The notes beneath the pieces are model-generated. The model was not told where the DNA came from. It did not search any database and saw nothing but the letters and a program-made list of their open reading frames with translations. A DNA stretch of 59,403 nt, from the NCBI GenBank assembly GCA_016841625.1, contig JAENYU010000003.1, positions 123,073-182,475 on the forward strand. Direction: 5' to 3'. The position numbers and the translations under genes are program-made. Below, piece after piece: positions 56,149-59,403 of the stretch; the first letter of the stretch is position 1; each line of letters opens with the position of its first letter. The DNA comes from Methanobacteriota archaeon (GTDB taxonomy: Archaea > Halobacteriota > Methanosarcinia > Methanosarcinales > Methanosarcinaceae).

Positions 56149-56462
56149 TTACTCCATTCGTTTATAAGGGTACACCAGATTCGTGTGGTGAATTTTTGAA
56201 TAGATTTTTTTGTCTTTGGAATTATGTTTGTCTTTAGATTATGCTTATCTTTAGATTATGCATATCTTTAGATATTACTTGATGTTTACTGCGATAAATC
56301 ATATAAGATGTAGCTTATAAGATGCAACTTGTTTTAAAAGTTTACTACCTTTCGCAATTTCGTTTGCCATTTAACCTTGATTCCGATTTCAGTTGACCGC
56401 ATTCAATCAAAACCCCGAGAAACGATAAAAACCTTCTTGAAAGTTTCTTAATTTGGGGATAA

Positions 56463-56572
56463 ATGTTTATAAAAGGGATATAAAATATTTATAAAAGGGA
56501 TATAAAATGTTTATAAAAGGGTTATAAAATGCTTATAAAAGGGTTATAAAATATTTGTCAAAGAGATATAAA
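56463..56572 (+). repeat. 22-bp tandem array, five copies, candidate origin iterons
   Basis: Unit atgtttataaaagggatata then aa, with single changes, repeats at exactly 22 bp, about two helical turns. Each copy contains ttataaaaggg. The flanking region (56149-56716) is AT-rich, holds no gene, and also contains a shorter ctttagattatgc-type repeat at 56205-56280. No clear ORB (origin recognition box) sequence was found by eye. Confidence 0.85.
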
Positions 56573-56716
56573 ATGTTTTATTAGTTACCGAAAAAGAAAG
56601 ATGGATCTTTTCAGTTATTCGGAACCGCAACCGATCAGAACCTGCTTTATATAAAAATACAGATATAATACGAGAATGACTATATTGCATGTGCTTGTAT
56701 ATAGGAGGGGGAAAGC

Positions 56717-59350
56717 ATGGAAATCGAATCGAAGTTTCTTGTAACGGATGAAGCGGACTTCCGAGCCCTTGAAAAGCTGTCCCGGTTGGGGGACTATTCC
56801 CTTTCCGAAACTGTGGTCCAGCCCAAAGAAGACAGCTTCCTGGACACGGAAAACATGGCTATAATGGCATCGGGTTACTATCTGCGGCTGCGTAAAGACA
56901 TCGGAAAAGAAGGGCACTGGATAACCATCAAAAGCCTGGGCGGGTTTGAAGGCGGAGCCCACAAAAGAGAAGAACACGTCTGTTTTCTGCCCGAGGGAGT
57001 ACCTATCCTGGAATGCCCCGATACCGGGATCAGGAACAGGATTTTCGAACTTAGCGCAGGTTTTGACCTGTCCACAATCCTGAAACTCAAACAAAAAAGG
57101 GTTGTCAGCCAGGTGAAACTTGGAGAAAGGCACGTAGCCGAACTCTCCATGGACCGGGTGAACCTGAAAAGCGAAAGCAGGGAAAAAACTTACAGCGAAC
57201 TTGAAGTGGAACTAAAAAGCGACGGGAACTCCAAAGACCTGGCCACGATTTCAAAATACCTTCTGGAAAATTACAACCTTACTGAGAGCCCTTTTTCCAA
57301 ATTCGAAAGAGCCGTCCTCTTTAGCGAAAACCTCCCGGAAAAAACCCTGCTGACCCACAGGGAAAGGGCTGTCTGCATGCAGCTCAGAGAACACAAGAAT
57401 ATCTACGGGAAACAGGCCGGAATTCTCCTGGAGCTTGACAGGGGCAAATCGAGTTCGGAACTGAGCCTCCTGTTTAAAATTCCCGAACCTGAAATCGAAG
57501 CCCTCCACTCGAAGTTCAAAAAAGAGAGGCTTTCCTTCTTTCCCTTTGTAATGGAAGACGCCACAGACCGGGAACTCCACTTTAACCCCGGAAGCGGGAT
57601 ACTGGAACAGGGCTGGGAAGCCATGGGTTTTGAGGCATGGACTCCTGAAGCCTTCTTCGAATGCTACAGTGTAGACGAGGCAAAGGCAAAAAGGGTCAGA
57701 GATGCTGCCCTTGCCCTCTTTGACGGGCTTTCCCCCTACCACGGCCTGGGAGCTGAAGAAAGGGAACTGCTTGCCCTGGCAGCCCTCCTGAAAGACATCG
57801 GAATTTCCGTATCCAGGGAAGAAAAAGCTCGAATGAGCAAGGAAATTCTCCTGAGCCACCCCCTGAAAGGCCTCGAACTCCACAGCTTACGCATGCTCGC
57901 CCTGATCACGGAACTCCAGGACCCCGGGTTCAGTGAGAAAAACCTCGGGCAGGCCCTGAAAGAGTCACATATCAGGCTCCTTCCCGGACTCCAGAATAAA
58001 GCCCTGGTGCTCGCAGCCTTCGTCCGGATTGCGGACCTCCTGGAAACCCAGGTTTCCCCTGTCCGGCTCGGCAGGATCCGGCAGCTCGAAGATGCCCTGG
58101 AAATCGAACTGATAGGGCCTGATGCAGAAAAAGCCGGAAAGAAAGCAGAGAAGCGAAGCGAACTCTGGGAATACCTCTTTGGCATAAAACTCTGGTTCAC
58201 CCCGACGGAACAGCCGCATGAAGCCGGAACCGAAGAAGAAGAAGAAGAAGAAGAAGAGAAAAAGGAAGAGGAAGCAAAGGGGGAAGAAGGGGAAGGAAAA
58301 GTCGGAGAAAAGGGAGAAAAAGCTAAAGAGAAGAAAAAAGGCGAAACTTCCAAAAAGTTCACTGTCAGACCCGGAGATTCCATGGGAGAAGTCGCCCACA
58401 GGACATTTTCTTACCAGTTTGCCCGGATGCTGTCCCACGAAAAAGGGACCCGGAAAGGGGAGGATATCGAAGAACTCCATGACATGCGGGTGGCGGTCAG
58501 GCGCATGCGGGCGGCATCAAAGGTCTTTGAAACCTATCTTGACTCCAGGCAACTGAGCCCGCACATGAAAGGGCTTCGCCTTACCCTGGGAGCCCTCGGG
58601 GATGTCCGGGATCTGGACGTTTTCCGGGAAAAGGCAGAGGAGTATCTGGAAACCCTTCCCGAAGGCCACGAACAGGACCTGGACCCCCTCTTTGCCGTGC
58701 TCGGAGAAGAAAGGGAAAAAGCCAGGAAGACCATGCTTGCATACCTGGACAGCGAAAAATACGCCCGCTTCAAAAGGGATTTCTCGGAATTACTTGAAGT
58801 CCCCGGGGCAGGGACCCTTCCCACCAGCAACAAAAAACATGACGCTCTCCCCCACAGGGTAAAGGACGTGCTCCCTTCAGTTATTTACGCCCGCTTCGCC
58901 GACATAGCTGCCTATTCCGAATGGGTGGAAGGGCCTTACGTCTCGGTAGAACGCCTGCACAGGCTCAGGATCGCTGCCAAGGGACTGCGCTACACCTTCG
59001 AGTTTTTTGAGGACGTACTCGGAGATAATACAAAATCCATGATCAAGGAGTTCAAGGGTCTGCAGGACCACCTGGGAGACCTGCACGACGCCGTGGTCGC
59101 AATCGACCTGCTGAGTTCTTACCTGAGGACCGGGGCCTGGGGCCTTGCAGAAAGCGAAACCGGGAAAAAGTCCGGGAAAAAGGAGAAGCTTGAAGGCCTG
59201 GAAGGAGTTGAAACCTACCTGAGATACAGGGAAGAAGAACTCCGGATCCTGCTCGACACTTTCCCCGAAGCCTGGGCAAAGTTCAGGAACAAGGGGTTCA
59301 GGGAAAAGATCGAAGAAGCCATCGAAAACCTTCATGAGACTCCTTCATGA
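56717..59350 (+). CDS. CYTH - Ppx-C-like - CHAD fusion protein
   Basis: The 877-residue protein joins three modules. Residues 1-205 are CYTH (triphosphate tunnel metalloenzyme) with the signature E2-I-E4-S-K6 (ExExK). A helix-turn-helix-like stretch follows (about 212-275). Residues about 315-480 resemble the C-terminal HD-like domain of Ppx/GppA exopolyphosphatases, but the key His is replaced: ALLKDIG instead of ALLHDIG. A Glu/Lys-rich linker (about 500-545) leads to CHAD (about 555-870) with its His-rich helices LHDMRVAVRRMR, LHRLRIAAKGLRY, and LQDHLGDLHDAV. All three modules bind or process polyphosphate or triphosphate, so a polyphosphate-related role is likely. GGAGGGGG precedes the ATG. 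Confidence 0.88.
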   Translation: MEIESKFLVTDEADFRALEKLSRLGDYSLSETVVQPKEDSFLDTENMAIMASGYYLRLRKDIGKEGHWITIKSLGGFEGGAHKREEHVCFLPEGVPILECPDTGIRNRIFELSAGFDLSTILKLKQKRVVSQVKLGERHVAELSMDRVNLKSESREKTYSELEVELKSDGNSKDLATISKYLLENYNLTESPFSKFERAVLFSENLPEKTLLTHRERAVCMQLREHKNIYGKQAGILLELDRGKSSSELSLLFKIPEPEIEALHSKFKKERLSFFPFVMEDATDRELHFNPGSGILEQGWEAMGFEAWTPEAFFECYSVDEAKAKRVRDAALALFDGLSPYHGLGAEERELLALAALLKDIGISVSREEKARMSKEILLSHPLKGLELHSLRMLALITELQDPGFSEKNLGQALKESHIRLLPGLQNKALVLAAFVRIADLLETQVSPVRLGRIRQLEDALEIELIGPDAEKAGKKAEKRSELWEYLFGIKLWFTPTEQPHEAGTEEEEEEEEEKKEEEAKGEEGEGKVGEKGEKAKEKKKGETSKKFTVRPGDSMGEVAHRTFSYQFARMLSHEKGTRKGEDIEELHDMRVAVRRMRAASKVFETYLDSRQLSPHMKGLRLTLGALGDVRDLDVFREKAEEYLETLPEGHEQDLDPLFAVLGEEREKARKTMLAYLDSEKYARFKRDFSELLEVPGAGTLPTSNKKHDALPHRVKDVLPSVIYARFADIAAYSEWVEGPYVSVERLHRLRIAAKGLRYTFEFFEDVLGDNTKSMIKEFKGLQDHLGDLHDAVVAIDLLSSYLRTGAWGLAESETGKKSGKKEKLEGLEGVETYLRYREEELRILLDTFPEAWAKFRNKGFREKIEEAIENLHETPS

Positions 59351-59403
59351 GACTCCTTCATGAGACTCCTTCATGAGACTCCTTCATGAGACTCCTTCAT
59401 GAG
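59328..59403 (+). repeat. 13-bp tandem repeat across the end of the CHAD gene
   Basis: Five or more copies of tccttcatgagac begin inside the last codons of the preceding gene and continue through its stop codon to the window edge, so the array may extend further. Confidence 0.92.

Follow-up and report, generated by a model that had tools for sequence, protein, structure and literature searches.

The window analysed here, the whole stretch of 59,403 nucleotides, carries close to its end an open reading frame encoding an 877-residue protein (56717..59350, + strand, as are the parts of the gene given below). Pfam recognises three domains in the full protein, each above its curated cut-off: CYTH (PF01928, residues 2-199, E 1e-14), Ppx-GppA_III (PF21447, residues 311-415) and CHAD (PF05235, residues 565-799, E 6e-58). 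Together with the alignments and models described below, these matches give the order CYTH, HTH-like module, Ppx domain III with a dead HD site, E/K-rich linker and CHAD. The linker (residues 498-548, 58208..58360) is recognised by its composition and predicted disorder (pLDDT about 27), and its length differs between orthologues. NCBIfam matches to DrmA, a capsid protein and PriX fell largely within or beside this low-complexity segment and were discarded. A full-length AlphaFold2 model, built with 12 full-length orthologues as input, has confident domains and disordered joints (pLDDT 78, pTM 0.54); the relative placement of the domains in it is therefore unreliable. Upstream of the gene is a 22-bp AT-rich tandem repeat (AAATGTTTATAAAAGGGATATA) at 56461-56578. 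A 13-bp tandem repeat (CCTTCATGAGACT) at 59329-59403 overlaps the stop codon and reaches a stretch of N immediately beyond the window end; this repeat supplies the C-terminal residues HETPS, which are missing from congeneric orthologues. Also just past the window end are a convergent full-length ppx gene and then ppk1, both identified with Pfam.

The CYTH/TTM domain (residues 1-203, 56717..57325) was assigned from the Pfam match, alignments and Foldseek, in which the modelled residues match the eight-stranded tunnel fold of TTM enzymes (TMt about 0.7). It retains the ExExK, RxR, TxK and ExE motifs together with K195/R198, and the residues concerned (E2/E4/K6, R57/R59, T70/K72, E163/E165, K195/R198) are invariant among the three-domain orthologues, those of ExExK and ExE in 12 such proteins. 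With this catalytic signature intact, the protein as a whole is probably an enzyme, and not the pure polyphosphate sensor or scaffold that an earlier sequence-only reading had suggested.

The CHAD domain (residues 549-877, 58361..59347) is modelled as two four-helix bundles and is matched in the full-length model by the CHAD-polyphosphate structure 6qva (TMt 0.87, Foldseek). Residues H588, R591, R595, R631, R758 and Y759 are invariant among the three-domain orthologues and correspond to H253, R256, R260, R296, R418 and Y419 of the Chlorobium CHAD protein CtCHAD, mutation of which weakens polyphosphate binding (PMC6537752). In E. coli YgiF, a CYTH-CHAD protein, the CHAD domain stimulates tripolyphosphatase activity (PMC6537752).

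Residues 204-277 (57326..57547) form a helical module absent from the sequence-only description. An AlphaFold2 model of residues 204-510 (pLDDT 85, pTM 0.85) predicts four helices here in an HTH-like pattern. Pfam HTH_23 matches 2/22 orthologues and HTH_29 4/22, with weak E-values (3e-4 and 1e-3); the window copy of the segment has no HTH profile match, and a PDB profile search gave weak HTH-type matches. The module is thus a candidate member of the HTH group.

The region between this module and the linker (residues 306-497, 57632..58207) resembles domain III of Ppx/GppA exopolyphosphatases, as the sequence-only reading had proposed. The PF21447 match scores 40-43 bits against a cut-off of 27.3 (E 3.6e-10). 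In a Foldseek search with the 204-510 model, ranks 1-28 were all Ppx/GppA proteins, among them the C-terminal domain of Yersinia Ppx (3rf0, TMt 0.70), and there were no other confident matches; a different fold for residues 300-490 was thereby ruled out. The catalytic domains I-II of Ppx (PF02541) gave no Pfam match in the window protein and are present in the neighbouring gene.

The H...HD...D metal-ligand pattern is missing from this domain in the window protein, in which the ligands are substituted by K323, K359-D360, K370, Q401 and E443. An alignment of 95 domain-III sequences from the loci examined found the full set in 0/39 three-domain proteins, against all 55 readable sister domains. 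The sequence H / HD / H / H / D is kept in 32/32 neighbouring full-length Ppx proteins, 12/12 two-domain CYTH-PpxIII proteins, 9/9 readable stand-alone copies and 2/2 metallophosphatase-PpxIII fusions. The prediction of a dead HD part is thus borne out across the orthologues. Its emphasis on a key histidine replaced by lysine holds in part: K359 is real (LLKDIG, with the codons of K359 and D360 at 57791..57796, where sister domains have HD), but it is one of several losses and not a general rule. The position is K in 15, Q in 13 and H in 6 of the 39 copies, and each of those six misses other ligands, so that on the alignment lysine 359 is one symptom of a general ligand loss. A sequencing error as the source of K359 was ruled out, since congeneric orthologues have K, K and E at this position and the other ligands are gone as well. 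Loss of the HD site within this fold is not unique. It has precedent in E. coli Ppx, whose domain III is itself partly degenerate (Q for H, HE for HD and N for the last D), and in Deinococcus Ppx, which carries HE instead of HD in solved structures.

Continued catalysis by the HD domain with altered ligands would fit the presence of the HD aspartate in 23 of the 39 copies; however, with the histidine-metal set complete in none of them and most ligands now K, R, Q or E, we regard it as highly improbable. No new polyphosphate site was identified in the dead domain, whose conserved basic residues are common to its active sisters.

The dead domain is nevertheless maintained. In genus g1 its dN/dS is 0.22, compared with 0.18-0.19 for CYTH and CHAD, and in the g8 set it is 0.18, somewhat faster than the 0.12-0.13 of the other two domains. 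Values of about 0.2 indicate purifying selection and disfavour a decaying pseudodomain. They likewise count, in the two genera tested, against a passive relic or spacer retained for folding only, as do the occurrence of the domain in four genera and the confident, intact fold of the window copy. A relic would nevertheless account for the variable residues at the vacated ligand sites and for its conservation, the lowest of any folded domain in the set (26/192 columns at 95% or more). On balance, we consider it rather unlikely.

Within the family, full-length three-domain copies are present in 4/4 genomes of g1, 2/2 of g2, 28/31 of the Methanosarcina-like g8 and 5/6 of g11 (in three of the five g11 genomes the copy shows up as a pair of matches within a single frame). 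A sample of 392 genomes of the phylum gave full-length matches in this family only. Additional copies of the gene, broken or partial, occur in G106 (locus L102), G117, G126 and G128; at L102 a CYTH-containing remnant still adjoins ppx and ppk1, with an intact copy elsewhere in the genome (L086).

The gene neighbourhood strengthens the link to polyphosphate made in the sequence-only reading. A full-length ppx lies downstream in 28/39 three-domain loci, convergent in every case, at a distance of 17-313 bp in 27 loci and 3.2 kb in one, and in most of them ppk1 comes after it. Both copies of the block in genome G103 have their own ppx. Ppx dimers use their C-terminal domains, and the dead domain shares the fold of Ppx domain III. 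It might therefore be a docking module that pairs with domain III/IV of the neighbouring Ppx, thereby tethering Ppx at polyphosphate granules or regulating it there. Yet convergent genes are not co-transcribed, no ppx was found in the flanks examined of the g11 genomes with the fused protein, and the window dead domain shares up to 35% identity with the branch of CYTH-PpxIII and stand-alone proteins but 28-29% with the neighbouring Ppx. We consider docking unlikely.

In other genera of the family these modules occur as individual genes, in clusters that also contain ppk1, ppk2 and ppx. The clusters of the sister genera g5 and g14 comprise a two-domain CYTH-PpxIII protein (415-435 aa), a CHAD gene, a different ppk1 and a ppx of 297 aa that lacks domain III; ppk2 adjoins CYTH-PpxIII in one g14 genome. 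The CYTH and PpxIII domains of these proteins are related to those of the window protein, but their HD ligands are intact (12/12), a short joint takes the place of the HTH-like module, and CHAD is encoded separately instead of being fused. In most cases this separate CHAD has four predicted transmembrane segments. At L051, L054, L055 and L098, the CHAD protein has four N-terminal predicted transmembrane segments (with a DUF7139 match in L051) and its gene precedes ppk1 and a short ppx without domain III. One CYTH-PpxIII protein, starting MGTKAK (L093, 9318-10565), has lost ExExK and keeps its HD ligands, the opposite of the situation in the window protein. Elsewhere in the order, in other families, a calcineurin-like metallophosphatase is fused to PpxIII with HD ligands intact (L038, 9096-10475; L062, 1730-3247), in neighbourhoods shared with CHAD and ppk1 genes.

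The genome that contains the window also encodes, elsewhere and not noted in the sequence-only reading, a stand-alone 220-aa Ppx domain III with complete HD ligands (L033, 7547-8209, on contig C62). Its gene adjoins one of the histidine phosphatase superfamily, and similar copies occur across g1, g2 and g8. This paralogue is possibly an active HD phosphohydrolase. In a tree of 57 domains, every sampled three-domain copy falls in a single clade (support 100/96); because long branches come together around the g11 copies, the depth of this clade is uncertain. The same tree groups stand-alone copies from the Methanosarcina-like genera with CYTH-PpxIII proteins (98/97). In a simple reading, an active CYTH-PpxIII gene would have undergone duplication, after which one product became the stand-alone protein and kept its HD site, and the other joined the HTH-like module and CHAD and lost that site.

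Pseudo-enzyme sensors typically lose catalysis but keep the fold, and the genome has retained the intact paralogue as a separate, stand-alone protein. Both points would suit a role for the dead domain and HTH-like module as a ligand sensor, for nucleotides or Pi for example, that controls CYTH. The former active-site positions nonetheless vary among orthologues (R/K/Q, K/Q/H, K/S/E), leaving no common ligand pocket evident, and we think such a sensor improbable.

Fusions of CYTH with CHAD and with HD modules are already known, and the window protein, an uncommon form of an established enzyme type, does not amount to a novel system. It resembles the YgiF-type CYTH-CHAD tripolyphosphatase (PDB 5a60) in its N-terminal CYTH with ExExK, C-terminal CHAD and link to polyphosphate, but differs in having the HTH-like module, the dead Ppx domain III and the E/K linker between CYTH and CHAD. 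It resembles Ppx/GppA domain III (PF21447; E. coli Ppx 1u6z, Yersinia 3rf0) in fold and in a sequence above the Pfam cut-off, but has neither the catalytic domains I-II nor the HD ligands. Iyer and Aravind 2002, as cited in PMC8233210, is credited with reporting CYTH joined to HD, exopolyphosphatase and CHAD modules; the CYTH-HD and CYTH-exopolyphosphatase fusions among these likewise join CYTH to an HD-type module and have an inferred role in phosphate metabolism. In the literature searched, which covers Iyer and Aravind 2002 through later citation, no paper describes this domain combination in Methanosarcina.

From the computed domains, residues, selection and gene neighbours, we propose that the window protein is a CYTH (tri/poly)phosphatase bound to granules or polyphosphate, in which the dead Ppx domain has a non-catalytic part, handling the polyphosphate chain or acting as a spacer. 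We give this proposal about an even chance. CHAD would grip polyphosphate chains or granules, and hydrolysis of short chains or of chain ends would take place in the CYTH tunnel. Domains III/IV of exopolyphosphatases serve as non-catalytic chain-handling or spacing modules, and the inserted domain III, its HD metal chemistry lost and its fold kept, may do likewise; its role could be structural alone. The protein would work alongside Ppx and PPK1, the products of the neighbouring genes. A phosphatase held on polyphosphate is the likeliest reading because the CYTH signature and the six CHAD residues are kept and because CHAD stimulates YgiF (PMC6537752).

A bolder version makes the protein a granule organiser, in which CHAD holds polyphosphate, the dead Ppx domain captures the neighbouring Ppx and DNA is linked to the granule through the HTH-like module. 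We see this as a long shot; if true, a pseudo-exopolyphosphatase would coordinate polyphosphate storage in Methanosarcina and its relatives. Split and fused forms occur in one family, with intact and dead versions of domain III cleanly sorted by architecture, which provides a natural comparison for what Ppx domain III does. The regulation of archaeal ppk1, ppk2 and ppx has been described as unknown (PMC6864096). Conserved, encoded beside ppx and ppk1 and combining probable polyphosphate-binding and polyphosphate-cutting parts with a pseudo-exopolyphosphatase domain, the window protein is a direct candidate for a part in archaeal polyphosphate regulation.
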